64,000 nt of DNA from Scilla litardierei (Eukaryota > Streptophyta > Magnoliopsida > Asparagales > Asparagaceae). The notes beneath the pieces are model-generated. The model made no database searches and had not been told where the DNA came from. It saw only the letters and a list, made by a program, of their open reading frames with translations. This document shows, piece after piece, positions 1 through 63,249 of this stretch (its first letter is position 1; each line of letters begins with the position of its first letter). Made by a program: the position numbers and the translations under genes. The stretch is from NCBI GenBank assembly GCA_030789695.1, contig CM061142.1, positions 354,739,486 through 354,803,485 of the forward strand. The letters are read 5' to 3'.

Positions 1-2574
1 GCAGACTCTTCCAGAACTGAGACGTGAACCTCGTATCGCGATCGGATACAATGCTCACAGGGACTCCATGCAAACGCACAATCTCCTACACAACATATTC
101 ACATCACTAATGGCACTAGAAAGGAAATACGAAAGAATGAGTTAGATCATTACCTCCATATATTTCCTAGCCAGTATTTCCGTCGATTGTCCTACTCGGA
201 ACGGTATGAAGTACGCAGACTTGGTCAGTCGATCGACGATGACCCAGATTGCGTCATTCTGTTTGGTGCTCCGAGGTAAGCCAGTCACAAAATCCATCGT
301 GATGTGCTGCCATTTCCACTCCGGGATAGGCAGGGGCTGTAGTAGTCCGGCGGTGCGATGATGTTCAGCCTTCACCTGCTGACACACCAGGCATTTGGCA
401 ACACTCCGTGCCACACTTCTCTTCATCCCGTGCCACCAGAAATTCCGACGAAGATCCTTGTACATCTTCGTACCTCCAGGATGAATGGAGTAAGGCGAGC
501 TGTGAGCCTCATTCATCAACTCCTCTCTGATATCACCTGCAGGCACGCAGACCCTACTGCCGTACCTCAAAGATCCATCCTCGTGAATCACAAAATCTGT
601 CCGGAGTCCAGCTTCGACTTGCTCTCTGATCTTCCTCAACTTAGCATCACCAGCTTGAGCAGTCTTGATCCGATCAACAATCATCGACTGAATCTGCATG
701 TTCATCAACGATGAAGTGACTCCGGGAAGGACAGCTTCAACATCCATCTCTCGCAAATCCTGCTGCAATCTCCACTCGGCTGTGAGAATCATCACCTCTG
801 GCAGTCGGCTCAAGGCGTCCGGTACGACATTCACCTTCCCTGGATGATACTGAAGGTCGATGTTGTAATCTGCCATCAACTCCAACCATCTGCGCTGTCT
901 CATCAGCTCCTTCTGAGTAAATATGTACTTCAAACTTTTGTGATCGGTGAATATCTTCACCTTCTCACTAAGTAAGAAATGACGCCAAATCTTCAGCGCG
1001 AATATGACAGCGGCGAGTTCCAAATCATGGGTCGGATAATTCTTCTCATGGACTTTCAACTGTCGCGAAGCATACGCGACCACATGGTTGTGCTGGTGCA
1101 GAACACAACCAAGTCCCTTCCCTGATGCATCGCAGAAAATCTCAAAGCCTCCGCTTCTGTCTGGAATAGCTAAGATCGGTGCAGTCATCAGTTTCTTCTT
1201 CAAAGTACTGAAAGCCTGCTCACAAGATTCTGACCAACTGAACTTGACATCCTTCCGGGTCAACCTCGTCATTGGCTCAGCTATCCTCAAGAAATCCTTG
1301 ATAAATCTGCGGTAGTAGCCAGCCAATCTGAGGAAACTCCTGATGTCCGAAGCTGATCGCGGTGTAGGCCAATCACTGACTGCTATGACTTTCTCCGGAT
1401 CCACTGAGATGCCGGCTCCTGATACTACATGGCCAAGAAATGCAATTCTGTCTAACCAGAACTGCATTTGCTGAACTTGGCATATAGTTTATGATGGCGG
1501 AGCGTCTCCAATACCAATCTCAAGTGCTCTGCATGCTCTTCCTCGCTCCTCGAGTACACCAGGATGTCATCTATAAAAATCACCACGAACTTGTCGAGGA
1601 AGTCATAAAAGATGAGGTTCATGAGGTTCATGAACACATCAGGAGCGTTGGTCACACCGAATGGCATGACAACAAACTCATAGTGCCCGTACTTGGTCCG
1701 GAAAGCTGGCTTGGGCACGTCATCCTTCTTGACTCTGACTTGATGGTATCCGCTCCGAAGATCCAACTTCGAAAACACCTTCGATCCACCAAGCTGATCG
1801 AAGATATCGTTAATACGGGGCAGCTGGTACTTGTTCTTCACAGTGATCTGATTCAGCTCTCGATAATCGATACACATCCTCCTCGATCCGTCTTTCTTCT
1901 TCACCAGTAAGACGGGTGCACCCCAGGGAGACACGCTGGGATGAATAAAACCTTTCTGTAGCAGCTCGTCCAACTGCTTCCTCAGCTCCTCTAACTCAGC
2001 AGAGCCATGCGGTACGGTGCCTTAGAAATCGGTTGAGCCCCTGGCATCAGATCAATGCCGAACTCTAACGCTCGATCAGGCGGCAAACCGGAAATGTCCT
2101 CGGGAAAAACATCCTCGAAGTCTCGCACTACAGCTGGCTTCTCCGGCTCTGCTATCATAGATGCAACTGTCAATCTGTACGGCTGGGCCCGGAACTTGAC
2201 AGGTCCAAGCGAACGTCCCCCGCTGATGAACTCAAACACTGGGTGGCCAGGAATTTTAAACACCACTTTCTTCCGGTGACAGTCGATCGTGGCATAGAAA
2301 GCTCCTAACCAATCAATGCCGAGGATCGCATCGAAATTGGGTAGATCGTGGACGATGAAATCTGCATACAATTCGTGTCCACTAACTACCAATGGGCAAG
2401 GTCTATAACCAAGCACAACCTTCACCACACCATTCCCAGTCGTGATGTTCCAACACTTAGGAAGTGTGTAGGTGGGAATCGAGTGTTCGACTACGAACTT
2501 CCGTGACAGGATGCACATGGAAGCTCCAGAGTCGAACAGGGTCAGGGCGGGGTGAGAAGAAACTAGGATAACAC
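1..2574 (-). pseudogene. pol: Element A pol: protease, RT, RNase H, integrase (broken)
   Basis: The pol region of A makes the retroviral-type aspartic protease (DSGAS active site near 2535), reverse transcriptase (FIDDI catalytic motif near 1570), RNase H (FCDASG near 1130) and integrase (HPGG and CLVCQQ zinc-binding parts, MDFVTG with the first catalytic Asp, then SDRD with the second Asp in the last 85 bases). It starts at an apparent 3' splice site (2575/2574) and has no ATG ahead of the protease. Compared with element F there are two one-base deletions, near 2007 (after the RMA of the RT N-terminal region) and near 1466 (after KFSKC), each shifting the frame. An RNase H codon is also missing (KELMRQ against KELNMR in F). 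An apparent intron at 86-153 splits the integrase. The C-terminus is off the window. Confidence 0.9.
86..153 (-). other. Candidate intron 2 of element A (integrase)
   Basis: A 68-base segment begins GTAATG after the codon pair ATG GAG and ends TTGTGTAG. Taken out, the integrase frame runs on, in phase 0, from the YME residues into the conserved VRLHGVP stretch and the SDRD catalytic motif. Left in, it gives a stop after two codons. Element F has a GT-AG segment of 72 bases at exactly the same codon boundary. The 68 and 72 base lengths leave different frames, so neither readthrough nor frameshifting could explain both. Confidence 0.8.
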
Positions 2575-2661
2575 CTAAGGGGTAACAAGCAACTATATCA
2601 AACAAGGAAACTAACTAATCAAACATAAATGCAGAAAAGTAAAGACTAGGTCAAGGGTTAC
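2575..2661 (-). other. Candidate intron 1 of element A (gag/protease junction)
   Basis: An 87-base T-rich segment with donor CAG|GTAACC and acceptor CCTTAG|GT. It interrupts a glycine codon (phase 1) after the gag residues DVIAG. If it is retained, gag stops two codons later (NP then TGA); if removed, gag continues in frame into the protease DSGAS region. Element F has a 113-base segment at the same place and phase. Because 87 is a multiple of three and 113 is not, splicing is the one mechanism that would fuse gag to pol in both copies. Confidence 0.8.
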
Positions 2662-3820
2662 CTGCGATCACGTCGTCAACAGCTTCAGCCTCAACGGCTG
2701 ACATGGTGTAAGCTCGACGCACCGGGGGTTTGGCCTGCTGAAAGGCTCTCTCCTGCGGTGCCAGAGGTGGTCCTCGATGTCCGGGTGCATGCACTGGTCT
2801 CTGAGCGGGTCCAGGTGCAGGCGCTGTCCGCTGAACAGGTCCAGGTGCTCTAGCAGTCATAGGTCGAGAACCTCGGGGGCAGTCCCTCGCAACATGAGCA
2901 GACGATCCACAAACCAAACACTGATTCAGCATCTTCCTGCAGTCCTTCTTCAGAGGTCCAAGCTTGCCGCAGAAGTGGCAAGTCTGCTCAGCTCGGTTGA
3001 AAACAGGTGCGGCTGGCCTCTTGAACTGGGTGGTCTGGACTGGACGTACACCAGGCCTAGGTGCACTCCTCTGCATCTCCATCGGGCGCTTGCCCGCCTA
3101 TCGGGCCTTCTTCAGATTGGCCACGTGCTCCTGATTCTTCGCAGCCACCAGAACATCCTCATGAGTAGAAAAAGTATTCCCGGACAGCACACTCTGAATG
3201 TCCATGTCCAAGCCCTGCAGGAAACGGTGTGCACAGTTCTCAGGTTCCTTCACCATGGCAGGGGCATAGCGGCTCAGCATGGTGAACTCCGCCTCGTACT
3301 CGTCAACGGTCATGGTACCCTGCTCCAGGTTGATGAAGCGAATCTCCATCATCCGCTTCGCCGACTTGGGAAAATACTGGGCGTCAAATCTCTTGCAGAA
3401 AGTATCCCATGAAATCGGCTTGGTCAGCCTAGCCTCCTCCGCAGTCCACCAACTGCGAGCATTATCTGTCAGCTGCTTCCTGGCCAGATCCACCCATTCA
3501 TCTTTATGGATTCGGGCAAGGCCCAAATCATCCTCAGTGCTCTGACGCCACTCTTCGGCCGCTAGCGGGCCCTCTCGTCCGGAAAAGCTCTTCGGACGCA
3601 TCTCTCTGAACTGCTTGGCTCCCGGGGCGGGTGCAACTGGTGCGGCTGGCGCAGCTGGTGCAGCCTGGCGTCCCTGCTGGACTAGATGATGCTGAACCTC
3701 CAGCTTATCTCTCATAACTCCTAGCATCTGGCGGATGTCGTCCTCTCCACCTCTGGCAGCTCCGGTTCCGTTTCCGGCTCCGGCTCCGGCTCCGTGTCGG
3801 GTGATGCGTCTTCCGGACAT
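2651..3820 (-). pseudogene. gag: Element A gag (one nonsense codon)
   Basis: Capsid and nucleocapsid protein of the A retrotransposon, which packages its RNA in cytoplasmic particles. I start it at the ATG at 3820 (MSGRR), which lines up with the MAGRR start of F gag and directly follows a strong 3' splice-site-like tract; the longer open frame up to 4036 is LTR and leader. An Ala/Pro-rich N-terminal part is followed by the retrotransposon gag core (SWWTAEE, FDAQYFP, HRFLQGLD). Two zinc knuckles follow: the first has lost its histidine (CHFCGKLGPLKKDC), the second is intact (CLVCGSSAHVARDC). One in-frame TAG (complement of 3098-3100) separates the core from the knuckles. Without splicing the frame ends at 2651, inside the candidate intron. 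Confidence 0.88.
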
Positions 3821-3821
3821 C

Positions 3822-3848
3822 CTGCAAAAGAGAAAGAAAGCCCGAGTT
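3822..3848 (-). promoter_or_regulatory. 3' splice-site-like tract just before A gag start
   Basis: On the minus strand the bases before the gag ATG read as a pyrimidine run ending CTTTTGCAG, followed by G and the ATG. This is a textbook acceptor. It suggests that a leader intron running from the LTR is removed so that gag becomes the first reading frame; a possible GC-type donor (CAG|GCAAGT) lies in the LTR near 5237. Splicing itself is inferred. Confidence 0.5.
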
Positions 3849-3926
3849 AATCCCGTGTATACGATTATTCTAGATGTTTGGCTAATGATAAATGTTCTCG
3901 TTATTTTGAATTTTGCAGTTGCAAGG

Positions 3927-3944
3927 GACCTGCATGGGCCACCA
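3927..3944 (-). other. Primer binding site of A (tRNA-Ile type)
   Basis: The minus strand reads TGGTGGCCCATGCAGGTC, beginning 8 bases after the LTR end. It is complementary to the 3' end of a plant cytosolic tRNA-Ile (acceptor ATGGGCC, A, CCA, with T-stem CCTGC) as I remember that tRNA. The same 18 bases and the same 8-base spacer occur in B, C and F. Most plant chromoviruses use the initiator tRNA-Met site instead. Confidence 0.7.
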
Positions 3945-5399
3945 CTAAAACCTGTAACGCCCCGCTTCCTAAAAGACACTGGAAGCGAGAGCGTTACGCG
4001 GTCCGCTTGAACTGGAGTGACGAAGCTCGAGTTCAATAAGCGTCTGTGATTAAAAACACAGATGAGGTCCTTGCAACTACCATTCAGAAATAATAAGAAA
4101 ACACAACCAGCACAGATATAGCCACATCCAGAAATAAAGTTCGTACACAGAGTTTAACAATGCCACAGCTGGGCTACAAGTAGCAACGAGGAAGGTAACG
4201 TACTCAAAAGTAACTACAACGACTAGAAGAACCAAGAAAGCAGTAAAGGTGACGGGGTCCACTAGTCCTCTGCTGGGAGAGGAACTGCGTCAGGCGCGAA
4301 CTCCTGACTCTCCAACTCAGGTGTCTCGTACTGGTCCTCCTGGCACTCAAGCTCTGAACCTGACATACATCCACAAACATGAATGTATGTCAGCTAGGGG
4401 TCTGCAAGAAGAGTTAGCATCCCAAGGCGAAGTATACAACAAGTATATGAAATTTAGAAGCATTTAATAAATGAAACGACTGCAGCAATTAACATTTAAT
4501 ATTTCGGAGCAGAAAGAAACAATCCTAGCATGCAGTTCTAGTCGATGGCAAGTTCAAAATTAGATTCTCTGAGTTTGTTAGCATTTCCAAAATTCACAAA
4601 GACCAAGTTAGCGTTACAATGACCATGTCAAGACTTCACATCTAATCTAGGGTTCTCGCCTTTAGGTCGTGATGAGAAGGTCATTCCTCTCACGGGGGCT
4701 TACCGTGATTGACACTAACCCACCGCGTCGGGTGGTGCTCTTGAGGAGAGTACATTTCATACGCCCATTGGCCGCTCAACCCTAACCCCACCCAAATGTT
4801 TTGCCGGAACACGAGCCGGCCTAGTCGACTCACACGACATCACGAATTCACGATTCCGCCTTTGAGGTGAACGATCTCACGATGTCCATATAGTTAATCA
4901 TGTCAGGACTCACTGAATTTTACTGTTATCAATGTTAAAGTTTTATGGTGACAATTCTGCAAAATGAAAACGGGTCGAACGACCGTTTCCGTAATTTCAA
5001 TTAATGACGATTTCGTCCTTTCTGTTCAACTTGCTACAGAAACAATTTCTTTCTCTAGTTGTTTAAATTGGGGATATATCGTATGATATACCGTTGGATC
5101 CCAATTTTCGTCCTAGTCATTATGGTGACAGTTTCCTACTTTATTTCACGTCACAATTTCAGGTTATCCAGTAATACATGAAGGCGGCGTAAACGTGCCG
5201 AAACTTCTAAAAATCATAACAAATTATATACTTGCCTGTTTTTTGCGTTCTTGGTGTCGTTGGATTCGTCTCGACGAATACTATGATGTGGGAGGTTCGG
5301 TTCGCTGTTTTGGCAGAAAATAAAATCAGAATTGGTGTTTTTCAGTTCAGGTCAGATTCGTAAAAGTTCATACGACGTCTAATCATCATGTTTTATTAG

Positions 5400-7226: not shown

Positions 7227-7287
7227 CTTCAGAATAGAGCCGTTGGAGCATTAAATGCCACGAATTTTGCTCTCTCTTTCCTCTATC

Positions 7288-8030: not shown

Positions 8031-8041
8031 AGTACTTAGCT

Positions 8042-10285: not shown

Positions 10286-10338
10286 TCTTTTAGGACCCAA
10301 TGACCTTGGGTACCATGGAATGATATGTTTATCTTTAG

Positions 10339-16028: not shown

Positions 16029-16071
<43 letters not shown>

Positions 16072-33006: not shown

Positions 33007-33014
33007 TAGGGTTG

Positions 33015-33190
33015 AGGAGAAAATATAAAGCCTAGGGTTTATATTGGCTAGGGTTTGTTTTATAGGAAAAAGTAGGCTGCTGTATGAGTAGGGCCTTAGG
33101 GTTTAACTTTAGGGTTTATATAATATAGAAGTATTCATAGGGGGTGCCAGCACGACTTAGGGGCTAGGGTTTAAATGTTAAGACTAAGGA
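33015..33190 (-). promoter_or_regulatory. Telo-box-rich promoter region of B left LTR
   Basis: Repeated plus-strand TAGGGTTT (AAACCCTA on the reading strand) surrounds TATATTAT/TATAAA-like strings just upstream of the GC-rich leader. The same block is at about 37820-37985. Layout matches element A. Confidence 0.5.
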
Positions 33191-42797: not shown

Positions 42798-42812
42798 ATT
42801 GGTATCAGAGCC
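42798..42812 (+). other. Primer binding site of D (initiator tRNA-Met)
   Basis: ATTGGTATCAGAGCC follows the LTR directly, the standard copia primer site. Confidence 0.88.
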
Positions 42813-42902
42813 AAGGTTCAAAGCTACACATAGCCAAAGTTCAAAGCTATTACGAACAACGACTACAACGTCTTCAAGAACCGCGATGGAGCTTCTTCAG
42901 TT

Positions 42903-45119: not shown

Positions 45120-46476
45120 TCCTATATTAATGATGTTATTTTGAATAATGATTATGTTAGAAAGTCAAGTTCCTCTTGGACTTGGTTTCCGAAGGGTTAG
45201 TTCCTTTAACTCTTCAATGCTTGGTACCATGAGTTTATGATCATGTTATGGGTACCAAGGCATTTGTTTATAAAATTGATTTTGACTACATTAACTCATG
45301 GGTTACAATTATTTTAATTTCGTATTTCAAATTTGTTGTCTAACCCATTGGATCCAAAAGGGTTTTTGGATACCAAAATGAAGTTTTCTAGGTTCAATCC
45401 ACCGTGGGATACCAACCCTACCAACTCCTCGTTTTGCGAAGACTTTCATTCAAACGGAGTTGATGGTGCTTAGGTAATGCACCAATGTAGGGGGAGCTTA
45501 ATGTTGTAAGTATAATATTACATTTGGTATCCATGAGGGTTGAATGCATGCTTGGTTAGAATCTATTTCTTTACATTGGTATCATTTTGTTTCTCCTAGC
45601 ATGATAGAATTGTGAATGCCATAAATGCTTTGAAATTCATATCTATTTTTGGCATGACATGTTTTTAAAAGTTATTATGATGATTTTCGTATTACTTTTA
45701 TCACCTTGTCACTTCTCATCGCACACTTCACTTAGTTTTGATGTGCTTTTACTTTATGTTCATTTTCGATCGATATTGTGACATTTGATATTCTATGATG
45801 TGCACCACTCTTCTGATGGTTCATTCCTTTGTGCACATTTTATGTATGTCTCTGATATTGATTTCGTCGCTCGACAATTTATTTTGATTCAATAGCTTTA
45901 GTTGTATGAAAACATAGAATTGTTTTCCATGCACTAAAATAGCTATAATTGTTGATATTGGAGAATAAATTCCTTTCATCAATACGTGAATTTACAATTG
46001 GTATTTTGATGACTTCATTTTTCGTTTTTCGACTAAGGTCTCTTTGGCACACCTTTAATATGTTTTGGTATTTTACTTTGGTGTCATTGGACCGAGGTCG
46101 TATTCTTCGACTCCCGTGATTCATGTATTATTTGGCCATGATTTGTTATCTTTGACTTCCTCCCGCACTTTTTGGATTATGCCAAAGGGGGAGAGATATA
46201 ATAATGGCGGCATGTGCTAAATGATAGTTTAGCATGAATCTAATTTGATATGTTAGATTCATGGGGAGTTAAGAAAATATAAATGTAAAATATAAATGTA
46301 CTTCAAATTCGATAACTGGATTTGTGTTTTTAATTTTCTCGCCTGATTGATGCATATGTTTATTATTTCATATGGAACTAATGTGTCATCAATGCAGGGG
46401 AGTAAGTAAACTTCATTTAGTACATTATTATTGATTATTATTTATGTTGGTTTGTCATCACCAAAAAGGGGGAGAA
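45120..46476 (+). other. Element D 3' non-coding region and polypurine tracts
   Basis: No gene. Polypurine-like tracts occur near 45490, 46184, 46262, 46397 and 46464; the last (AAAAAGGGGGAGAA) touches the 3' LTR. From about 45780 the sequence matches 15960-16746 of E. The pol deletion must lie between 45200 and 45780. Confidence 0.82.
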
Positions 46477-48197
46477 TGTTGAGTATTGGACTCCCCGTAT
46501 TTGGTTTTGGATGATGAGCAAACATAAATAAATCATGAACTAACAATTTGTGAGCGCAGTTATGGAGATCATCGCCAAATTCAAGAGAACACTCAAAGCG
46601 ACATCTTAAGACTTCTCAAAGCTCGTATTCAATGCCTAAAGCTTCGTTGAAGCTTTTGGACCTTTTTGGAAGTCATGAAGATTTGATCGAAGCATTCGAA
46701 GACCGTTCCTTAAGGTTTTATTCATAGTCTTTTAGCTTCGATTTATAGAATGTTAAGCCTTGAGTAATTCTTACATGTCTATCTTCATATCGCTTATATC
46801 TTAGAGCTAGGATTATCTTAGAAGCCATTAGAAACTTTCCTGAAGCCTATCGCTTCTTCCCTCGGCTTTTAGTGCATCTTAGTTGGTTCAAGTAGAGTCA
46901 CCAACCGGCTAGATGACGATCTAGTCGGTCGGCAACTCTTCATGAACCGACTAGATGTCCTAACTCATTTCAGCTCAGCCATGTCGATCAATTAGTCGGT
47001 CAAAGAAGGTTCACCGACCGACTAGATGACGATCTAGTCGGTTAGGAATCCTTCTCAGACCGACTAGTTGAGCTTGCCTCTGTATAGCCTGAGTTACTGT
47101 TTACAGTTAGTCGGTCCAAGAACATTCATCGACCGACTAGTTGTGAAACTAGTCGGTCATCATTTGTTCTTAGACCGACTAGTGTAACTTGTATTTAGCT
47201 TCGTGCATTTCACTCTTAGTCGGTCAAAGAACACTCACCGACCGACTAGTTGGCAAACTAGTTGGTTGGCAAGTCTTCTTAGACCGACTAGTTCATGTTG
47301 CCTGGAAATCACTCTTTTGGCTGTCGAGCTGTTAGTCGGTCCATGTTGAATCACCGACCGACTAGTTGATGAACTAGTCGGTCAGTGATCCTTCTTAGAC
47401 CGACTAGTCTGCTTCAGATTTAGATCCGTTGGAGTTTTGAAAGCGACGTTTCTTTCTCTCTTTTCCCTTGATCCTTTAAATACCTGAAGGGGTTATTTCA
47501 TAGGATCCAAGGCTGCTATTTCCAGAGTTCTATTGATTCAAAAAGAGAAGCTTTCAACTCTCATCTTCAAGCTCTCCCATTCTCAAGAATCTCTCCCTCA
47601 CTCTTATTCCTCAAGAGAGATTCATTGATTGTGAGCCTTCCAAGCCAAGGGCTTGATTCTAGGTCATCCATCTCATCCCTAGGCTTCCATTGCTGGTCAT
47701 CTTCTTGAAGCTAGGGTTTGGTGACTCTTCCTCCATCAAAATCCTCTTTGCCCTAATTTGGTAAGAAATCTCAAGGCATAGGTATTTTGTTGGTAAGCAT
47801 TTCATTTCAGTTATATTTGAATTGTATACTCTCGGTTGTGAGAGTTTTTGCGTGATCCCGGGTTGTGGGATTCACGGTCATCGATTGTTGGTCGTTTGCA
47901 CTTGTGAGGTTTTCGCAAGTGGTCATATTGGAAATCTTGAGTTAGGGTTTCTAACTCAAGTATCCGGAAGGGATCCGGGTGGTTGGGACGTAGGATCACC
48001 ACGAACAAGTCGGGGAGACTTGGGTGGATCCGAACCCATTAAACCATTGTGTTTGCGTTTGCATTATTTCTTGATTGTAGTTATTCCGCATCGTTGTTTG
48101 TTAATTGCACGATAATTAGGAATAACACTCCTTATTATTTAAAAGTACTATTCACCCCCCCTCTAGTACATGTGCAGTAGCTTCCCAGGGCACTACA
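46477..48197 (+). repeat. Element D 3' LTR
   Basis: 1721 bases, same ends and length as the 5' copy with few differences, so the insertion is recent. It carries its own five-unit array at 46879-47410. Confidence 0.93.
46879..47410 (+). promoter_or_regulatory. Five-unit palindromic array in D 3' LTR
   Basis: Same units as in the 5' LTR, with a few substitutions inside half-sites (for example CCGGCTAG near 46905 and CTAGTTGGTT near 47257). Confidence 0.9.
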
Positions 48198-48202
48198 AGA
48201 GC

Positions 48203-49822: not shown

Positions 49823-49860
49823 AAAGTCCGAGGACGGACTTTATTCTAAGTTGGGGAGGA
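49823..49860 (+). other. Hairpin and polypurine tract of element C
   Basis: AAAGTCCG-AGGA-CGGACTTT (49823-49842), then AGTTGGGGAGGA (49849-49860) touching the 3' LTR. Confidence 0.82.
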
Positions 49861-52635
49861 TGTAATGACTGGTTTTCATGTATTTGGATTATCTATATTA
49901 TATATATATGTTTTGGTGGATTTTCTCCTCATGTGTGGTTTTCGTCTCCGTAGCTTTCATTTCAATCGCTTCGTCGTGATTTTCTAGCTTCTTCCTTAGA
50001 GTCGTTGATCTTGGAGTAAGTCGCTCATGACGAACTTCAAATCGCTCATATTTTAGAGTTAGAGTGATCTTAGAAGCTATAGGAATCTTCCCGAAGCTTC
50101 GCGCTTCATTTCGGCACTTTTCGTGCACCTTAGTTGGTTCAAGAAGGGGGACCAACCGACTAGATTCCAATCTAGTCGGTCAGGAACTCTTCTCAAACCG
50201 ACTAGTTCATTGAATCAATTATTCAGGAGTTACTGTTTACTCTTAGTCGGTCTAAGAACAACCACCGACCGACTAGATGTGAAACTAGTCGGTCAGAACT
50301 TGCTCTCAGACCGACTAGTTCCTTTGATTAATTTTACCTAAGTTACAGTTTCTGTTTAGTCGGTCTAAGTTCATCTTTCGACCGACTAGTTGTTAAACTA
50401 GTCGGTTAAGTTTTGTACTCAGACCGACTAATTCTGAGTTCTTCTGTACAGTCGAGTTACTGTTTATCGTTAGTCGGTCCATGAACACTCATCGACCGAC
50501 TAGATTACAAACTAGTCGGTCGATGGGCCTTCACAGACCGACTAATTCACTTCCCAGATTTCTTCCTTCTTTCGCTGTTTGGTTTTTGTCGGTCACAGTT
50601 GAACAACCGACCGACTAGTTCCCAAACTAGTCGGTCAGCCACCCTTCGTTGACCGACTAAATCACCCAGAAACCCTAATTTTTGGGCGGCCGCCGGTTCA
50701 TCTCTATCAATACACCCGATCGTTTCTCTTTCTCTCTTCCATTTCCCTTGGCCATTTCCCTTCCCCTTGACCTCTGATCTTCCCCAACCTTCCTCTAGCC
50801 CTTCCTCCTTCCTCAAGAGCCTCTCCCCCTCTCCATTTGGGCCGGCCACCTCCTCTAAGCCGTCGGAAAAACTCCCAAAACCCCACAAAATCCCTTTTCT
50901 CCAGATTTCTCCATCCATTCCAGATCTGAACCGTGGTTCCCCGGATTGTTTCTTCTGTCGCCGTGCTTGCTCGGCATCGTTCTTCCGCTAACGATTCGGT
51001 AATTAATCGATCTCTTAATATTCTCATGACCCATTTGTGTTTTTGTGAAACCCTAATAAAAATGGAAGTTAAAGATATTGTTCTAATGTTGTTTTTCCAC
51101 GGCAGAGATCTCATCCCCGTAGGTTACCATTTTGTGACGTGCCTCGTTGATCGTCATCCTCGGTGCTAGGCAAGTGAAACTTGCTTCCTAGGGTTTTAGG
51201 CCATGTTTTAGGCCACTTTTGTACCGTAGCGTAAAAGAGACTAGACAGTGAAATGATAGCTGCCTAGACGTCTATTTGATCTAGTTTGAAAACGAAATTA
51301 GATCCGTCACCTCAATTGATCTAACTTGACAACGAAGCTAGGTCCAACCCTTTTAACTTGTTGTTCATGTATATTAAACTGCCATGTTTAATTCCTTGCC
51401 TGTACGCCTTACTACCTGCCATGCCATGCTATCCATGTTGAAATGTCGCATTCGTAGCACACGCTACAATACTTGTGTTTCCTGGCTCGTGTTCCAGAAG
51501 CGGGCCATGTGTGTTGGTTGATAGCCAATGCCCGATCTACTAGTTTCCGGCTAGGCACCTGCTTTTAGCGGGCACAATCCTACGCCAAATTGTGAACCTA
51601 AAAACAAGCTCTTGTGCGGGGCAACCCTGGCTCATTTACTGAGCATCGTATGCAGGGACCCTGGCTTGTTTACGTGTGGGAGGGGTAAGGGTTAAGCGGC
51701 CATTCAACTGGGAGTCTGCCCGATCAGCAACTTCAGTTGTAAGGCGTAAACTCTGGGATTGGGGTAGTGTTAAGCGGCCAATTAGTGTGAATGTCAACAG
51801 TTCAGCTGTAAGGCGTAAACATATACAAACAACTTGAAACGTGACTAGTGAAAAGATTGAGATTGTTAGTAGCTTGGCTACTCCTGTCATGCCATGATAA
51901 TTGTTCTCTTGCACTATTGTTACACCATGTCTTGCTTGTGCACGACGTATTTACTTGACGCGATTTACTTGACTTGTACTTGTCCATGTTTATAGTTGTA
52001 AAACTTGTTATCCATGCCATACTTGTTACTTGTTGCTTGCACCTTACCTTATTTGTTACTCACATACTAAACTTGCCATGCTATGCATCATACTATAACT
52101 GCTAGGTTGCTAGTTTGCCTTCACTTTTGTTTCCTTGCTCAAGTCTTGTTAGACTTGCTGACATGTGCCCCTTTACTCTTTTGGGTGACACATGTTAGAT
52201 CCCGAGCTAGAGGCCGTTGCAGAGGACGTAGTGTTGCTGGCGCTGAGCAAGTGGTTGCTGAGGAGGAGTTTGTGGTCATTGGTGACTAGTCTTAGAGACC
52301 GCTTGTGTTCTCTTCCTTTGTTTAGGCTTGCTGTTAGTTGTCGGCGCGTGGCACCTTTGCTTGTATGTTGTACTTTGTTGGCCATGTATGGGCCTTAGCT
52401 TTTCCTTTTGAGCCTGGTGGCTTTTCTGTGATATTGTAATTTATTTTATGGATATTCTGAGATTTAATAAATTACTTAGTGTCTCATTTCATTATTATTA
52501 TTGTTGTTTCGTATTGCTTTGTAAGGACATGCTAATTGAATTTTATACGCTTATCAGACTGCAGCTTCACAGCTCCACGTCTGAGCGGACCTTCTCACGT
52601 CTCGCCTCCACATTTTTGGGAAGCGGGGCGTGACA
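49861..52635 (+). repeat. Element C 3' LTR
   Basis: 2775 bases from TGTAATGACTGG to GGGGCGTGACA. Closely matches the 5' LTR. Its TATA box is changed to CTATCAATAC (50704-50713), against CTATAAATAC in the 5' copy. Confidence 0.92.
50130..50662 (+). promoter_or_regulatory. Five-unit palindromic array in C 3' LTR
   Basis: Same five units as the 5' LTR, with one half-site lost near 50584 (TTTTGTCGGTC). Confidence 0.9.
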
Positions 52636-53521: not shown

Positions 53522-55970
53522 TGTCACGACCCGCTTCCCTAAAATGGAGGCGAGATGTGAAAAGGTCCGCACGAGAGTGGAGCTGTGAAGCCCCAAACCC
53601 GATAAGCGTCAATAAAACATAAACAGGTCCCTGTAACCACAACAGAACAACAATAATAATACAAGGAGATACTGAAATAAAAATCTCACATCTCATGAAA
53701 TGTCCAACATGAAAATAAGTCCAACATCCAGAAGAGCCACCAGGCTAAAAGAAAAGAGTCTAAAGGCCCAGAACAAGGCCAACAATCGCAACAACATAAC
53801 AAAGTATAGGTGCTACACACCGATAACAAAACAACTGTCTAAACAAGAGTAAAACACAACGAAGACACTAGGACTGGTCCCCAGTGTCCACGTGCTCCCC
53901 GTCAAGCACAAGCTCGGGCTCGGCGTCAGCAAACACCTCGTCCTCAACAAGGTACTCAGGCTCAGGATCTAACATGTGTCACCCAAAAGAGTAAAGGGGC
54001 ACATGTCAGCAAGTCTAAAGACTTGGGCAAGGAAACTGAAAGTAAGGCAACTAGCAACCTAGCAGTTATAGTATGCATGACATGGCAGTTATAACTTGAG
54101 TGCACAATCAAGACATGGCAATACAATTTGTACAAGAGAACAATCATCGGGACAAGACAAGAGTAGCCAAGCTACTATCAATCTCAATCAATTCACTATT
54201 CACGTTATTTGTAGAAGTTTACGCCTTACAGCTGAATGGTTTCACATTCGCTGATTGGCCGCTTAACAACTACCCCAAAACCCAGAGTTTACGCCTTACC
54301 ACTGCAGTTGCTGATCGGGCAGACTCCCAGTTGATTGGCCGCTTAACTCTTACCCCCAATACCCACACGTAATGGAGCCAGGGTCCCCGCACATGAGCTC
54401 AGCAAGTGAGCCGGGGTTGCCCCGCACATGAGCTCGCATTCTTAAACATTTGGCGTAGGGGTGCACCTAGCCGGAAACAAGCAATTCGGGCATTGGCTAT
54501 CAACCAACACATGGCCCGCTTCTGGAACACGAGCCAGGAACACAAGCATTCGTAGCATAGAAGCTACGCAATCACAAAAGCACTTAAAGAATGCAATGAC
54601 ATGACAATTAATTCGCGTACCGTTAATGGAAAGTAAACATGACATGGTAATTATGCAACATGCTATATGTCGGAACTAGCTTCGTTGTCAAGCTAGTTCC
54701 CCAAATTTGCGCCTAGGCGAGTATCATTTCGTCGCCTAGCCTCTTTTACGCCTACAACAAGCAAATGGCCAAAAACATGGCCTAAACCCTAAGTGGCAAG
54801 TTTCACTTGCCTAGCACCGGGGATGACGACCACTTCGTCACACGGATGCCAATCTACGGGGAAATCGCTGTTATGGGGGAACAATCATCAAACAACATGA
54901 AATTTTATTAGGGTTTCATAAAATACCAATAGGTTATAAAAACACCAAGGGATCGATTTCTTACCGAGAGGAAGCGGAAGAAACACTCCGGAGAACCCTA
55001 GGATCAGATCTGGAAAGGATTGGATAAGTTTTGGAGAACTAGGGTTTTTGGGGATTTGGGGATTTGATGGAGATTTTGGGGAAGATGAGAGGTGGAAAGA
55101 GTGGATGGAGGGTTTGGATGATGATTCTAGGGCTTGGAATGAAGGAATGAAGCTTGGAGGAAGATGGGGGCTCAATGGGGGAGATTTTAGGGTTTTGGGT
55201 CGAGTGGAGGAAGAAGAAAACGTTTGGGATGGGTTTAAATAGAATGGGCTGGCGGCTGCCCAGAAATTAGGGTTTTAACACAGGTTAGTCGGTCAAAGAG
55301 CAACCACTGACCGACTAGTTTGGCAACTAGTCGGTCGGTCGACCAACGCAGACCGACTAAGAGCAAACAGTAACTTTTGAACGAAAATAGGATTTAGAAT
55401 TAGTTGGTCCATGAACAAATACTGACCGACTAGTTTAGCATCTAGTCGGTCGATGAACGTTCTTAGACCGACTAAGAGTGAACAGTGTTGATACTAAAAT
55501 TTAGATGATGAGTTAGTCGGTTAAAGAAGCATTGCCGACCGACTAGTTTGCAACCTAGTCGGTCAACCAACATTCTTAGACCGACTAACGATAAACAGTA
55601 ACTCCTGAGAAATTTAGAAAGCCAACTAGTTGGTCCAAGAAGGATTGCCGACCGACTGGATCGTCATCTAGTCGGTCGGTGCCCCTTCTTATACCGGCTA
55701 ATGAGCACAAAATGTTCCGATACGGAGCGCGGGGCCCCGGGATCGATTCCTAAGACTCCTAGGCTTGATCTAATAGTAAGATACGACCGTTGTGAAGTCC
55801 GTCACGAATGACATACTTCGAAATCGACGATCCTAAGGAAGAAACGAGAAAATACGACGAATCGATCGAAAATGAAAGCTACGGAGACGAAAACCACACA
55901 AGAGGAGAAAATCCACCAAAACATATATTATATTATAATAAATCCAGATACAAGAAAAGCAGTCGTTATA
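53522..55970 (-). repeat. Element F 3' LTR
   Basis: Plus-strand ends TGTCACGACCCGCTTCCC and GCAGTCGTTATA; the right LTR has TTACA at that end, so TATA is a mutation. Homologous to the C LTR over U3 start, array and the GGAACACGAGCC and GCGTAAAC blocks. Confidence 0.93.
55285..55701 (-). promoter_or_regulatory. Four-unit palindromic array in F 3' LTR
   Basis: Units at about 55285-55361, 55398-55475, 55513-55588 and 55628-55701. Spacers such as CGATAAACAGTAACTCCTGA are the complement of those in C. On the reading strand the array ends about 33 bases before TATTTAAACCC (near 55244-55252). Confidence 0.9.
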
Positions 55971-56008
55971 TCCTCCCCAACTTAAGAAAAATTCCGTCCT
56001 CGGAATTT
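55971..56008 (-). other. Hairpin and polypurine tract of element F
   Basis: On the reading strand AAATTCCG-AGGA-CGGAATTT (56008-55989) lies just after the pol stop, followed by TTAAGTTGGGGAGGA touching the LTR. Confidence 0.85.
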
Positions 56009-56016
56009 CCGAATAC

Positions 56017-59000
56017 TCACGAGTCCGGAAACAAAAGTGGGAAACGCTCTCGCATCTCATACTCATTCTCCCAAGTAGACTCTCCAGGTGAGCCGTGTCG
56101 CCACATCACCCTCACAAGATTGACAATCTTGTTCCGAAGTGATTTCTGACGCCTGTCCAGAATCTGCACTGGATGCTGGTCATACGTCATATCGGGGCGA
56201 ACGGTAATCTCCGAAAAATACACAGCATGAGATGGATCGCTAATGTATCGACGAAGCTGCGACACATGGAAAACATTGTGAACTCCTTCCAAAGATGGCG
56301 GCAAGGCCAAGCGATAAGCTACCTCGCCAACCCTCTCCAAAATGTCAAACGGTCCAATGTATCGCGGGCTCAACTTCCCACGCTTCCCAAAACGAATCAC
56401 GCCACGATTCGGGGAAATCTTCAAGAACACATGGTCGCCCGGCTGAAACTCCAAAGGACGACGTTTAGCATCCACCCAATGCTTAAAACGGTCCTGAGCA
56501 ATCCTCAACCTCTCCCGAATATTCCTGACGATATCCACGGCCTCCACGATCATCTCAGGTCCCAACAACTCCCGATCACCAACGTCATCCCAACTCAATG
56601 GCGATCGACATTTCCTCCCATAAAGAGCGGCGAATGGCGCCATGCCAATACTCGCCTGGAAGCTGTTGTTGTAAGAGAACTCCACCAAATGCAGATGGTC
56701 CTCCCACGAACCCTTGAAATCCAACATGCACGCCCTCAGCATGTCTTCCAAAATCTGAATCTTCCTCTCGGACTGGCCATCCGTCTGCGGATGGTACGCC
56801 GTGCTGAAACTCAGACGCGTATCCAAGCTCTTCTGCAAACTCTGCCAGAACTGAGATGTGAACCTCATGTCCCTGTCAGACACGATACTCACGGGGACTC
56901 CATGAAGTCGCACAACCTCCTGCATGATTCACGTTACATCACTATCCAAACTAGGAAAAAGGAAATAAAACGGAGAGTAAAAGAATTTTACCTCCATATA
57001 TCTCCTTGCTAGCGCCTCAGTGGACTGTCCCACTCGGAACGGAATAAAGTGCGCAGATTTGGTCAATCGATCTACGATCACCCAAATCGCGTCATTCTGC
57101 TTCGGACTCCGAGGTAGTCCAGTCACGAAATCCATAGTGATGTGTTGCCATTTCCACTCCGGAATCGGAAGCGGTTGTAGCAACCCGGCCGTACGCTGAT
57201 GCTCCGCCTTCACTTGCTGGCAAACCAAGCACTTGGCTACACTCCGAGCCACACTCCTCTTCATACCATGCCACCAATAATTCAGACGAAGATCTTGGTA
57301 CATCTTGGTGCCACCAGGATGCACAGAATACGGCGAACTGTGTGCCTCCACCATCAGCTCCTCTCTGATATCCCCAGCTGGCACACACAACCTGGCTCCG
57401 AACCTCAGCGAGCCATCCTCATGAATCAAAAAGTCAGTCCGCAGACCGGCTTCCACATGCTCCCGAATCTTCACCAGCTTCGGATCCTCAGCCTGGCCAG
57501 CCTTAATCCGATCCACGATCGTCGACTGTACCTGCATGTACATCAACGAAGAAGCCTCCCCAGGAAGAACAATTTCCACACCAGACTCGCAAAAATCCTG
57601 CTGCAATCTCCACTGCGAGGTCAAAATCATCACCGCTGGAAGCCTACTCAAAGCATCCGGAACCACATTCACCTTGCCAGGGTGAAACTGCAAATCAATC
57701 TCATAATCTGCCATAAGCTCCAACCATCGACAATGTCGCATGTTGAGCTCCTTCTGAGTGAAAATATACTTCAAGCTTTTGTGATCGGTGAAAATCTTCA
57801 CTTTCTCACTCAGCAAGAAGTGCCTCCAAATCTTAAGAGCAAACACAACGGCAGCCAACTCCAAATCATGCGTCGGGTAATTCTTCTCATGAACCTTAAG
57901 CTGACGAGACGCATACGCCACAACATGTCCGTGCTGATGCAACACACAACCGAGACCCTTGCCAGAAGCATCACAAAAGATCTCAAATCCACCTCTGTGA
58001 TCAGGCACAACAAGAATAGGGGCAGTCGTCAGCCTCTCCTTCAGAATACCAAAAGCATTCTCACAATCACCCGACCAAACGAAAGCAACATCCTTCCGCG
58101 TCAACCTGGTCATCGGCTCAGCAATACGAGAAAAGTCCTTAATGAATCGTCGATAATAACCAGCAAGTCCAAGGAAACTCCGAATCTCAGACGCAGACGA
58201 CGGAACATGCCACTCCCTGATGGCCCGAATCTTCTCGGGATCCACTGAAATACCATCTCCAGTCACCACATGCCCGAGAAAAGCAACTCTATACAGCCAG
58301 AACTCGCACTTCAAAAACTTAGCATACAAACGATGCTTCCTCAAGATCTCCAACACCGTCCTTAAGTGCGAGGCATGCTCTTCCTCCGACTTCGAATAGA
58401 TCAGAATGTCGTCAATAAAGATAACGACAAACTTATCCAAAAAGTCGTAGAAAATCAGGTTCATCAGATTCATGAAAACTGCGGGCGCGTTAGTTACGCC
58501 GAAAGGCATAACCACAAACTCATAGTGTCCATACTTCGTCCTGAACGCTGTCTTCGGAACATCATCCCTCTTCACCTTCAACTGATGGTAACCACTTCTC
58601 AGATCCAATTTAGAAAACACACTCGAACCTCCAAGCTGATCAAAAATATCATCGATGCGAGGCAACGGGTATTTATTCTTAATGGTCACCGCATTCAACT
58701 CCCGATAGTCCACGCACATGCGACGCGAACCATCCTTCTTCTTAACCAGCAACACCGGTGCTCCCCACGGAGACACACTAGGATTAATATAACTCTTCTG
58801 CAAAAGCTCATCCAACTGCTTCCGCAACTCTTCCAATTCTGCAGGTGCCATACGATACGGTGCCTTCGAAATCGGCTGTGCACCTGGAACAAGATCAATA
58901 GAAAATTCCAAAGCCCGATCAGGTGGCAAACCAGACATCTCCTCGGGGAAGACGTCGCCAAAATCTCGCACCACAGCTGGCCACTCCATCTCCATCTGCA

Positions 59001-59411
59001 TAGCCACAGCCTCCATCGGCCTGGCCCGAAATCTGACAGGACCAAGCGAACTGCTACCATGACTGAACTCAAATACTGGATGTCCGGGAATCTTGAACAC
59101 CACCTTCTTTCTCCTGCAGTCAATCGTAGCATAGAAGCTCGCAAGCCAGTCCATCCCAAGAACTGCATCATAGTTGATGATGTCGTGGACAATGAAATCA
59201 ATGAAAAGCTCATGTCCACAGACCACCAACGAGCAAGAATTGCAACCACGATGCACCGAGACCACACCATTCCCTGTAACGATATTCCAACTCTTGGAAA
59301 GAGGGGACGTCGACAAGGAATGCCTCTCCACGAAGCTTCGAGAAATAATGCACATCGATGCACCAGAGTCAAAGAGGACTCGTGCAGGAAATGTGCACAC
59401 CAAAACCACAC
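56017..59411 (-). CDS. pol: Element F pol: protease, RT, RNase H, integrase, chromodomain
   Basis: A full chromovirus polyprotein in two exons (59411-56992 and 56919-56017). Protease has the DSGASMCI active site (near 59368). RT has [17 protein letters not shown] and the catalytic FIDDI. RNase H has [15 protein letters not shown] and FTDHKSL, then PDALSRL. Integrase has a zinc part ([19 protein letters not shown]), catalytic MDFVTG in the first exon, and SDRDMRF and GQSERKIQ in the second. The end (NVFHVSQLR, then MWRHG...[14 protein letters not shown]) is the degenerate chromodomain of Tekay-type elements. There is no ATG before the protease, so it depends on fusion to gag. HCRW replaces the usual QRRW in RNase H. 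Otherwise no defect is seen. Confidence 0.93.
56920..56991 (-). other. Candidate intron 2 of element F (integrase)
   Basis: 72 bases from GTAAAATTC to CATGCAG, with a pyrimidine run in the middle, lying after the codons for YME and before the VRLHGVP motif (phase 0). Retained, it reads through as hydrophobic codons to a TGA at 56929-56931. It is at exactly the same codon boundary as the 68-base intron of A. Splicing would reunite catalytic Asp 1 with Asp 2 and Glu of the integrase. Confidence 0.82.
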
Positions 59412-59524
59412 CTAACAACCAATTAACAATCGAACCCTAGTCTAGCAAACAACCATGTTCAAGCAAACAACACAATCTAACAATCAAAACCAGCTAGGAG
59501 AGTAACAGCTAGATTGAGGATTAC
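59412..59524 (-). other. Candidate intron 1 of element F (gag/protease junction)
   Basis: 113 bases with donor CAG|GTAATCC and acceptor TTGTTAG|GT, T-rich, splitting a glycine codon in phase 1. Retained, gag ends 11 codons later at TGA 59484-59486. Removed, gag and pol are one frame. Same place and phase in A. Confidence 0.85.
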
Positions 59525-60656
59525 CTGCGATAACCTCATCCACAGCCTCGCTCTCCGCAGCGGCCATCAGAAAAGCCTGCCTCCTCGGCGGAACAGCCTG
59601 CCGAAAAGCCTGTCCCTGTGGAACAAGAGCTGCTCCACGTCCAGCAGGAACAGACGCTCGCTGTTGCAGCGGTTGTGCTGCAATAGGTGCCCTTCGCAGC
59701 TGATTCGCATGCCGACAATCCTTCGCGACATGGGAAGCATCACCATAAACCAGACGCTGGCCCAAAAACTTCCGAAACTGATCCTTGACGTGGCCAGGCT
59801 TGCCGCAGAAATGGAAAGACTTCAGAATAGGCCCTCCTGGCCTCTTAAACTGAGCAGACTGATTAGGCCTGAATCCAGGTCTAACCACAGCTCTCGCCTG
59901 TTCCACAGGCCTCTTCCCAGCACCAACAACAGACCCCCTCCTCTGGTTCACGAGCAGCTCCTGCCTCTTGGCTGCTACTAGAACCTTCTGATAAGACTCC
60001 CGGTCAGAAGATGTCACAAAACTCTGGAGCTCCGAAGCAAGTCCCTGCAGGAACCTCTGAGCTCTCTCCTCAGCGTCCTGCACCATCTTTGGTGCAAACC
60101 GACTCAGCCTCATGAACTCTTGGTGATACATGTCCACCGACGAGCTCCCTTGCTTCAAATCGATAAAACGCTGCAGCATCTCCTCCCTGGCAGCTTTCGG
60201 AAAGAACTCACCCTCAAATCTGGCCTTGAAGGTAGCCCAAGCTATCGGCTCCACCAACATCTTCTCTTCCGCATCCCACCAATTCCGAGCATTATCCTTA
60301 AGTTGCCTCTTCGCCAAATCAACCCATCCAGCCGGGGTGATCTTGGCCATCTTCAGATTGTCCTCGATGTTCTGAATCCACTCATCGGCAGCCAGAGGAC
60401 CCTCAGACCCATCAAAATATGCGGGACCTAGCTCCCGAAATTGCTTCGCTCCTGGCTCAGAGCGAGGGGCATCCGGAAGAGCCCGGGCAGCTCGAGCAAG
60501 TGGAGCATTCTGGACTTGCAGAAGCACGCCCTGCTGCACTTGCATCATCTGGAGCATCATCCGCATCATCTCACCGCTGGTGGGTTCCCGCTCAGGCTCC
60601 TCATCATGAGGGAGCGCACCACTGCCCCCACCACGGGTGAAACGCCTTCCTGCCAT
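59484..60656 (-). CDS. gag: Element F gag
   Basis: Capsid/nucleocapsid protein, 390 codons if unspliced. It opens MAGRRFTRGGG at 60656, right after CATTAG. A retrotransposon gag core follows (KQFRELGPAYFDG, NARNWWDAEE, FEGEFFPKAAREEM, RFLQGLA), then a basic region and two zinc knuckles. Both knuckles are damaged: the first has lost its first and last cysteines (FHFCGKPGHVKDQF) and the second has Tyr for a Cys (LVYGDASHVAKDC). The frame is open. Unspliced RNA would give free gag; RNA spliced at 59524/59412 would give gag-pol, which is a plausible way to set their ratio. Confidence 0.92.
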   Translation of the reverse strand: MAGRRFTRGGGSGALPHDEEPEREPTSGEMMRMMLQMMQVQQGVLLQVQNAPLARAARALPDAPRSEPGAKQFRELGPAYFDGSEGPLAADEWIQNIEDNLKMAKITPAGWVDLAKRQLKDNARNWWDAEEKMLVEPIAWATFKARFEGEFFPKAAREEMLQRFIDLKQGSSSVDMYHQEFMRLSRFAPKMVQDAEERAQRFLQGLASELQSFVTSSDRESYQKVLVAAKRQELLVNQRRGSVVGAGKRPVEQARAVVRPGFRPNQSAQFKRPGGPILKSFHFCGKPGHVKDQFRKFLGQRLVYGDASHVAKDCRHANQLRRAPIAAQPLQQRASVPAGRGAALVPQGQAFRQAVPPRRQAFLMAAAESEAVDEVIAGNPQSSCYSPSWF

Positions 60657-60800
60657 CTAATGACACAGAGAACGAATCAGATTAGACTCATAGCTTATGA
60701 CATCGGACGTCGAACTTAGTTTATTGGACATTCTAATATTATTATCGCTATTTCAAAAATCGCAGTTACAGAAGGACCTGCATGGGCCACCAACAAAACC
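60657..60800 (-). other. Element F leader with tRNA-Ile primer site
   Basis: Between LTR and gag lie the 8-base spacer, the primer site TGGTGGCCCATGCAGGTC (60792-60775), and a short leader ending in CTCTGTGTCATTAG before the ATG, which could be a 3' splice site. The leader is homologous to that of C. Confidence 0.75.
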
Positions 60801-63249
60801 TGTCACGACCCGCTTCCCTAAAATGGAGGCGAGACGTGAAAAGGTCCGCACGAGAGTGGAGCTGTGAAGCCCCAAACCCGATAAGCGTCAATAAAACATA
60901 AACAGGTCCCTGTAACCACAACGGAACAACAATAATAATACAAGGAGATACTGAAATAAAAATCTCACATCTCATGAAATGTCCAACATGAAAATAAGTC
61001 CAACATCCAGAAAAGCCACCAGGCTAAAAGAAAAGAGTCTAAAGGCCCAGAACAAGGCCAACAATAGCAACAACATAACAAAGTATAGGTGCTACGCACC
61101 GATAACAAAACAACTGTCTAAACAAGAGTAAAACACAACAAAGACACTAGGACTGGTCCCCAGTGTCCACGTACTCCCCGTCAAGCACAAGCTCGGGCTC
61201 GGCGTCAGCAAACACCTCGTCCTCAACAAGGTACTCAGGCTCAGGATCTAACATGTGTCACCCAAAAGAGTAAAGGGGCACATGTCAGCAAGTCTAAAGA
61301 CTTGGGCAAGGAAATTGAAAGTAAGGCAACTAGCAACCTAGCAGTTATAGTATGCATGACATGGCAGTTATAACTTGAGTGCACAATCAAGACATGGCAA
61401 GACAATTTGTACAAGAGAACAATCATCGGGACAAGACAAGAGTAGCCAAGCTACTATCAATCTCAATCAATTCACTATTCACGTTGTTTGTAGAAGTTTA
61501 CGCCTTACAGCTGAATGGTTTCATATTCGCTGATTGGCCGCTTAACAACTACCCCAAAACCCAGAGTTTACGCCTTACCACTGCAGTTGCTGATCAGGCA
61601 GACTCCCAGTTGATTGGCCGCTTAACTCTTACCCCCAATACCCACACGTAATGGAGCTAGGGTCCCCGCACATGAGCTAAGCAAGTGAGCCGGGGTTGCC
61701 CCGCACATGAGCTCGCATTCTTAAACATTTGGCGTAGGGGTGCACCTAGCCGGAAACAAGTAATTCGGGCATTGGCTATCAACCAACACATGGCCCGCTT
61801 CTGGAACACGAGCCAGGAACACAAGCATTCGTAGCATAGAAGCTACGCAATCACAAAAGCACTTAAAGAATGAAATGACATGACAATTAATTCGCGTACC
61901 GTTAATGGAAAGTAAACATGACATGGTAATTGTGCAACATGCTATATGTCGGAACTAGCTTCGTTGTCAAGCTAGTTCCCCAAATTTGCGCCTAGGCGAG
62001 TATCATTTCGTCGCCTAGCCTCTTTTACGCCTACAACAAGCAAATGGCCAAAAACATGGCCTAAACCCTAAGTGGCAAGTTTCACTTGCCTAGCACCGGG
62101 GATGACGACCACTTCGTCACATGGATGCCAATCTACGGGGAAATCGCTGTTATGGGGGAACAGTCATCAAACAACATGAAATTTTATTAGGGTTTCATAA
62201 AAATACCAATAGGTTATAAAAACACCAAGGGATCGATTTCTTACCGAGAGGAAGCGGAAGAAACACTCCGGAGAACCCTAGGATCAGATCTGGAAAGGAT
62301 TGGATAAGTTTTGGAGAACTAGGGTTTTTGGGGATTTGGGGATTTGATGGAGATTTTGGGGAAGATGAGAGGTGGAAAGAGTGGATGGAGGGTTTGGATG
62401 ATGATTCTAGGGCTTGGAATGAAGGAATGAAGCTTGGAGGAAGATGGGGGCTCAATGGGGGAGATTTTAGGGTTTTGGGTCGAGTGGAGGAAGAAGAAAA
62501 CGTTTGGGATGGGTTTAAATAGAATGGGCTGGCGGCTGCCCAGAAATTAGGGTTTTAACACAGGTTAGTCGGTCAAAGAGCAACCACTGACCGACTAGTT
62601 TGGCAACTAGTCGGTCGGTCGACCAACGCAGACCGACTAAGAGCAAACAGTAACTTCTGAACGAAAATAGGATTTAGAATTAGTCGGTCTATGAACAAAT
62701 ACTGACCGACTAGTTTAGCATCTAGTTGGTCGATGAACGTTCTTAGACCGACTAAGAGTGAACAGTATTGATCCTAAATTTAGATGATGAGTTAGTCGGT
62801 TAAAGAAGCATTGCCGACCGACTAGTTTGCAACCTAGTCGGTCAACCAACGTTCTTAGACCGACTAACGATAAACAGTAACTCCTGAGAAATTTAGAAAG
62901 CCAACTAGTCGGTCCAAGAAGGATTGTCGACCGACTGGATCGTCATCTAGTCGGTCGGTGCCCCTTCTTATACCGGCTAATGAGCACAAAATGTTCCGAT
63001 ACGGAGCGCGGGGCCCCGGGATCGATTCATAAGACTCCTAGGCTTGATCTAATAGTAAGATACGACCATTGTGAAGTCCGTCACGAATGACATACTTCGA
63101 AATCGACGATCCTAAGGAAGAAACGAGAAAATACGACGAATCGATCGAAAATGAAAGCTACGGAGACGAAAACCACACAAGAGGAGAAAATCCACCAAAA
63201 CATATATTATATTATAATAAATCCAGATACAAGAAAAGCAGTCATTACA
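60801..63249 (-). repeat. Element F 5' LTR
   Basis: 2449 bases, same length as the 3' LTR with scattered substitutions. It has a TATTTAAA box (62514-62521) and a leader with donor-like TCG|GTAAGAAATC (62244), matching the C leader at TTCGGTAATTAATC. Confidence 0.93.
62565..62980 (-). promoter_or_regulatory. Four-unit palindromic array in F 5' LTR
   Basis: Same four units as in the 3' LTR with a few half-site changes (AGTCGGTC against AGTTGGTC near 62684, and CTAGTTGGTCG near 62722). Confidence 0.9.

Follow-up and report, generated by a model that had tools for sequence, protein, structure and literature searches.

The stretch of DNA analysed here (the window) comprises 64,000 nucleotides (nt) of contig CM061142.1 from the Scilla litardierei assembly GCA_030789695.1, and carries on its minus strand two retrotransposons, F and A, whose coding regions are each broken by two intron-like segments. 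The domains of F follow the order protease (PR), reverse transcriptase (RT), RNase H (RH) and integrase (IN) found in Ty3/gypsy elements (Pfam), and PR and RT share one open frame. One of the segments (intron 1) lies at the gag/PR border and the other (intron 2) inside integrase. The two elements are made up as follows, F being bounded by long terminal repeats (LTRs) and reading frames being given as open reading frames (ORFs):

53522..63247, minus strand: element F, LTR pair with 98.65% identity over 2448 nt
about 53522-55968 and 60801-63247, minus strand: LTRs of F, limits from BLAST
59525..60656, minus strand: F gag exon, from the ATG at 60656 to the first base of the split glycine codon (ORF; Pfam Retrotrans_gag, 8.1e-17)
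59412..59524, minus strand: F intron 1, 113 nt, phase 1, GTAATC...TTAG
56992..59411, minus strand: F protease, RT, RNase H and first part of integrase (Pfam RVP_2, RVT_1, RT_RNaseH, Integrase_H2C2)
56920..56991, minus strand: F intron 2, inside integrase, 72 nt, phase 0, GTAAAA...GCAG
56017..56919, minus strand: end of F integrase and C-terminal tail, to the stop (Pfam SH3_Tf2-1, 3e-28; ORF)
2662..4153, minus strand: A gag stretch, upper limit taken from stop to stop (Pfam Retrotrans_gag, 6e-21)
2575..2661, minus strand: A intron 1, 87 nt, phase 1, GTAACC...TTAG
154..2574, minus strand: A protease to first part of integrase (tblastn of F pieces)
86..153, minus strand: A intron 2, 68 nt, phase 0, GTAATG...GTAG
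1..85, minus strand: A integrase past intron 2, cut by the end of the window, 89% of 28 residues like F

A itself is defective, since its gag contains an in-frame TAG (3100-3098) and its RT matches are pieces in different frames.

Intron 1 is bordered by CAG/GTAATCC...TTGTTAG/GTGTGG in F and by CAG/GTAACCC...CCCTTAG/GTGTTA in A, and in both it splits, in phase 1, the glycine codon of the motif D(E/D)VIAG. The original prediction, made from the letters of the window, had described this segment (CAG/GTAA...TTAG/GT, 113 and 87 nt, same codon, same phase) at the coordinates listed above, and rereading of the sequence agreed with it throughout. Likewise, retention of the segment ends gag within a few codons, at a stop 12 (F) or 2 (A) codons past the glycine, and its removal fuses gag to protease in frame in both elements. 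The gag frame of F meets a stop at 59486 and the pol frame is still stopped at 59439; these open frames do not overlap, so that a single frameshift cannot join gag and pol. In A, pol shares the frame of gag and lies behind two stops (2653 and 2617). The pol frame holds no ATG between its last stop and the DSG motif of protease in F or A, as had been claimed. Over the first 28 nt of intron 1, F (59524-59497) and A (2661-2634) are identical at 19 positions, splice consensus included. A gag protein from a JGI contig of 1579 bp (P0005), known from the protein alone, ends in DDVITGITRPSLYFR, for which unspliced A would read NP, stop, PSLYFS. Intron 1 thus probably begins alike in this third element, whose fitting tail letters, together with F and A, make a conserved signal at that start possible.

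The prediction had seen one shared segment, and missed the second. Inside integrase, the pol ORF of F is broken by ATGGAG/GTAAAA...CATGCAG/GAGGTT (72 nt, 56991-56920), and A has a counterpart of 68 nt, ATGGAG/GTAATG...GTGTAG/GAGATT (153-86), in phase 0 as in F. The flanks translate as RRYME/EVVRLHGVP, a site that we take to lie after the first but ahead of the second acidic residue of the integrase catalytic centre. Removal of intron 2 restores the usual protein, since 97 of the 120 relatives listed (of 5618 found) are continuous at this site with no added residue; the remaining 23 are mostly truncated or rearranged there, and some are continuous by eye. One protein, P0008, continues for seven residues beyond the site and then stops (LARRYLQ VCLLVFS), as expected of an unspliced reading, and is known from the protein alone; its close relative P0009, of the same clade (100/96), is continuous. 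An in-frame ATG (56923-56925) directly precedes the intron 2 acceptor of F, and the two nearest ATGs before the acceptor of A are out of frame.

Further copies were sought in the source assembly (3.68 Gb). Intron 1 was read in the best 40 of 332 candidates for F and in 30 of the 40 listed from 2603 candidates for A, both samples having been drawn with intron-1-bearing DNA and thus favouring copies that carry it. Rather than being lost from most intact relatives, the GT and AG of intron 1 were kept in 40/40 F and 30/30 A copies, with lengths of 111-114 and 86-87 nt, respectively. For intron 2, 20 copies of each element were fetched, of which 16 of F (3 without match, 1 partial) and 17 of A (3 without match) were readable; GT and AG were kept in all of these, with lengths of 71-73 nt (F) and 67-69 nt (A). 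Unspliced intron 1 runs into a stop in 70/70 copies, after 12 codons in 33 of the 40 F copies (14 codons in 5, 26 in 2) and after 2 codons in 30/30 A copies, and unspliced intron 2 does so in 16/16 F and 16/17 A copies. The lengths of F intron 1 fall into all three classes modulo 3 (22, 4 and 14 copies in classes 2, 0 and 1). Because the open frames of F do not overlap, A has two stops and the lengths fall into three classes, neither stop readthrough nor one type of frameshift fits both elements, just as the prediction had reasoned. It had also expected interiors to drift between conserved splice sites. Among copies this was found for F intron 1 (3.8% divergence versus 2.3% and 1.9% in its flanks), F intron 2 (5.0% versus 2.6% and 4.3%) and A intron 2 (9.8% versus 2.9% and 3.5%), and fails for A intron 1, taken up below.

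The distribution of both introns was then extended to other families with an Asparagus protein (P0001) that is continuous across the gag/PR border, a query that favours intron-less copies through their longer alignments. The search of the source genome gave 75 scored places of 86901 candidates, 25 matching in one piece and 50 split near residues 351-364 into a gag part and a PR part. Of 20 split places fetched, 19 were readable (L122 was not), and all 19 showed GT...AG at the same glycine codon as F and A; they group as family X (10), family Y (5), L123, L126/L127 and L111, L126 having its last exon base changed. Fourteen of 15 one-piece places were readable (L138 was not), and 14/14 run through without intron 1, with gag and protease in one frame. 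Copies lacking intron 1 are F-like (L134, L141, P4), A-like (L133), Y-like (L132, P1, P2) and X-like (P3). Intron 2 was read in 20 places from this search and was present in 9, absent from 11; at the intron 2 site of L145 the donor is AG/GTAAATTC. In the 19 places read for both introns, both were present in 3, only intron 2 in 5, only intron 1 in 7 and neither in 4. Among 20 further X-like copies, 18 carry an intron 2 of 69 nt, one (L181) gave no match and one (L165) is interrupted inside the intron; the interrupting sequence looks by eye like the beginning of the F LTR and is perhaps an insertion of a related element.

Several absences are exact. An F-type copy, P4 (= L201), lacks precisely intron 1, its flanks equalling F at 92/100 positions on the gag side and 285/300 on the PR side, and so does the X-type copy P3 (= L200), whose flanks equal those of L112 at 77/80 and 58/60. 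For intron 2, the X-type L158 lacks exactly the 69 nt present in L153, with flanks equal at 244/250 on either side; L158 is part of X copy L121, which in protease-RT is 98.6% identical to L112. Reverse transcription of spliced RNA would be expected to leave exact absences of this kind, and it is from them that we infer splicing itself. A protease-RT tree of 37 rows, on which L141 is placed among the F copies (99/98), requires at least nine state changes for intron 1 and at least two for intron 2, rows of unknown state being left out.

The frequency of intron-less junctions was assessed with patterns of 30 nt allowing up to 3 mismatches, which miss copies further off either pattern. F-type donor junctions with intron 1 numbered 9255 versus 35 without it (reversed controls, 0 each), the 35 including more distant copies such as L134. 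By these patterns, intron 1 is unspliced in about 99.6% of surviving F-type junctions, and the replicating RNA of F seems almost always to be unspliced at intron 1. Relatives with gag and pol in one frame and no extra segment, which the prediction had named as evidence against it, do occur; for the F type they are rare, and they fit loss of a spliced intron better than an absence of splicing. X-type junctions without intron 2 numbered 12 (up to 2 mismatches), some perhaps from other families.

The age of the arrangement was approached by comparing F with A. In six gag and pol pieces, silent sites were at or near saturation (pS 0.64-0.88) and pN was 0.08-0.32, which indicates that purifying selection has acted on the coding sequence beside both introns ever since a distant ancestor. 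Persistence of the shared segment in F and A despite silent sites at or near saturation, and of its GT and AG in the 40 F and 30 A copies read, suggests more than chance. The introns of F and A contain 44-48% T, against 20-34% in adjacent exon stretches; introns of other families range from 33% to 46%. The interiors, with 6 nt trimmed from each end, were aligned and scored against 500 shuffles. For both introns no shuffle reached the F-A score (0/500), so that the description of the two interiors as different holds for sequence and length, and they are nevertheless related. For intron 2, kinship of the interiors shows in 8 of the 15 pairs that six families form (up to 5/500 shuffles); for intron 1, among ten pairs of five families, it shows only between F and A and, weakly, between A and L111 (6/500).

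That intron 1 is a spliceosomal intron is strongly supported by comparison of sequences, on the grounds of exact intron-less sisters, kept splice sites, lengths free modulo 3 and a U-rich interior in F and A. We consider it probable that introns 1 and 2 are both spliceosomal introns of a chromovirus-like group of Ty3/gypsy elements, and that they are spliced partially, retention setting Gag above Gag-Pol. Gag-Pol would need splicing of intron 1, because pol has no ATG ahead of it and the gap is beyond the reach of recoding; as unspliced RNA, if translated, can give only Gag, partial splicing would be the simplest route to both proteins. Of the readings considered, the likeliest on this logic is that retention of intron 1 decides between Gag and Gag-Pol. 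The unspliced full-length RNA would be the genome that is packaged and copied, as the 9255 and 35 junctions suggest, and if translated it would yield Gag extended by 2 residues in A and in most cases by 12 in F. With intron 1 spliced out, Gag would be in frame with protease, and splicing of intron 2 would join the two halves of integrase, so that complete Gag-Pol would come from doubly spliced messenger RNA (mRNA) only; RNA spliced at intron 1 alone would encode Gag-PR-RT and a cut integrase, the cut falling presumably after the first catalytic acidic residue and before the second. Partial splicing is predicted to keep Gag above Gag-Pol, and occasional reverse transcription of partly or fully spliced RNA would produce copies exactly without one or both introns. 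A fuller scheme, to which we give somewhat less than even chances, would make this a two-intron programme, in which unspliced RNA would double as genome and as message for Gag, RNA spliced at intron 1 would provide PR-RT along with an inactive integrase, and doubly spliced RNA would encode everything. The introns would then mark translated RNA so that it seldom replicates, and leaks of spliced RNA would found lineages with fewer introns, in four states within one genome.

Several observations weigh against the partial-splicing reading or narrow it. Intron 1 of A drifts no faster than exons (0.9% versus 2.7% and 1.1% in its flanks), and intron 1 of family X, with 33% T, is not notably T-rich. 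The intron 1 interiors of X and Y align to those of F and A no better than shuffles (25 to 196 of 500 reach the score), which leaves room for parallel gains at this site. Presence and absence may have changed by loss, gain or recombination between families, case by case, and the gag side of L141 looks less F-like than its PR side. As to the switch that the prediction had proposed, the intron on which it rests stands well, and two findings qualify the switch itself: the second intron complicates it, as a complete Pol would need two splicing events, and it is not obligatory in the wider group, where gag and protease form a single frame in lineages that lack intron 1. Such intron-less sister lineages imply that retention is not required for amplification there.

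The introns might instead be real and spliced constitutively, Gag excess, if any, being made otherwise, and might persist through a separate unspliced pool that is packaged, as in barley BARE. The splice sites, close to the plant consensus, would suit this, as would the intron-less sister lineages, which have several copies each with gag and protease in one frame, and BARE indeed separates a translated pool from an uncapped packaged one (passages of PMC3735527). By contrast, any unspliced RNA that is translated can give only Gag in 70/70 intron 1 copies, and we regard constitutive splicing as unlikely. Far less probable is the repeated gain of introns at AG/GT sites, or exchange between families, in place of loss of spliced introns. 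AG/GT stands at both borders of intron 1, and the F/A and X/Y interiors differ beyond alignment, as gain would have it, whereas the kinship of the F and A intron 1 interiors (0/500) and of intron 2 interiors in 8 of 15 family pairs speaks against it, as does the lack of intron 2 in L158 within a family where 18 of 20 further copies carry it.

Recoding by stop readthrough, frameshifting or hopping, or internal initiation, with the segment merely resembling an intron, is the least credible source of Gag-Pol. Ty3-type elements elsewhere do use -1 frameshifts or a stop codon (passages of PMC10085805), but the non-overlapping frames of F, the two stops of A, the three length classes within one family, the exact intron-less sisters and a second such segment in mid-integrase all oppose recoding, and the want of an ATG ahead of DSG opposes internal initiation. 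Both were rejected on frames, stops and lengths. Decay of a single element was rejected as well, the segment being conserved across copies and in two families.

Of the elements compared here, CRR is presumably a centromeric chromovirus, and we take the protease and C-terminus of F to have the form seen in Tekay/Del chromoviruses. The cited statements that follow are drawn from passages of the sources named. The polyprotein is encoded in a single ORF in most groups (PMC6317226). In Ogre (Ty3/gypsy, Tat), an intron between two ORFs is spliced from a subset of transcripts, making the whole polyprotein possible (PMC6317226); F and A are alike in that an intron parts ORFs and partial splicing would permit a polyprotein. 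They differ in position and kind, as the Ogre intron lies between protease and RT, whereas in F, of a chromovirus-like group, intron 1 precedes protease and intron 2 lies in integrase. Among Ty1/copia elements, splicing near the gag/PR border of BARE1 and EVADE sets Gag versus Gag-Pol (PMC3735527, PMC12786077), and splicing of the 104-nt, U-rich intron of BARE1 makes a Gag-only RNA (PMC3735527). The predicted splicing of F and A shares this location and has the opposite sense: there splicing gives the Gag-only mRNA, and here the unspliced sequence ends gag. In sunflower Tyran and Varan, unspliced genomic RNA occurs beside spliced isoforms with short ORFs, e.g. a truncated GAG, and, unlike in F and A, the passages describe no intron before protease or in integrase (PMC7730604). 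Spliced transcripts of CRR have rt removed (PMC3735527), whereas the introns of F and A remove nothing coding, and Bagy2 uses splicing for env (PMC3735527). Tekay/Del elements share the order PR-RT-RH-IN with F, and the passages of PMC6317226 mention no intron in Tekay, in keeping with the original prediction, which had cited Ogre and copia precedents and had known of no description of this position for Tekay. A 2025 review describes plant LTR elements as generally intron-free, with Ogre and EVADE as exceptions (PMC12786077). The literature search, mostly of titles and abstracts with some passages, returned no intron at the gag/PR border or in integrase of a chromovirus. As far as these sources go, what appears new is the pair of introns, before protease and in integrase, and their four states in one genome, the kind of arrangement being already known from Ogre.

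The arrangement bears on how plant retrotransposons supply more Gag than Pol, and on how they separate translated from replicated RNA. Within a very abundant family, with 9255 F-type junctions that carry the intron, sister lineages with 0, 1 and 2 introns in one genome offer a natural experiment, and the intron-less fraction may be a record of the rate at which spliced RNA enters reverse transcription.

Some further features of F and of the window complete the description. The F protease matched best a protein of Asparagus officinalis (51% over 94%). With integrase, Tanacetum coccineum gave the best E-value (49%), and the highest identity among named listed proteins covering at least 95% of the query was with Iris pallida (63%). 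The searches of viral_contigs and genome_contigs returned no relative, as expected for a plant element. Pfam reported no PF00385 chromodomain at 1e-3 in the F tail, and several integrase relatives carry PF00385. The Pfam scan of F listed RT_RNaseH and the overlapping RT_RNaseH_2 once each; no search was aimed at a second RNase H, a mark of the non-chromovirus Tat lineage to which Ogre belongs. A tRNA-Met primer binding site is a trait of Tekay chromoviruses; after the 5' LTR of F no primer binding site was recognisable by eye. On the other strand lies an element with an LTR pair at 27047-29809 and 49860-52632 (97.4%), 76-81% like the F LTRs in pieces. With tblastn, the F protein pieces found nothing in the interior of this element. 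It is probably a non-autonomous relative and might use F-type proteins. Inside it, a 4.3-kb duplication (29810-34128 and 34606-38932, 98%) has an array of 30-nt tandem repeats in each copy. Two related copia-type elements, recognised by their ORFs and about 80% alike, occupy 41077-48198 and 6869-18471, with LTR pairs of 99.2% and 97.3% identity.
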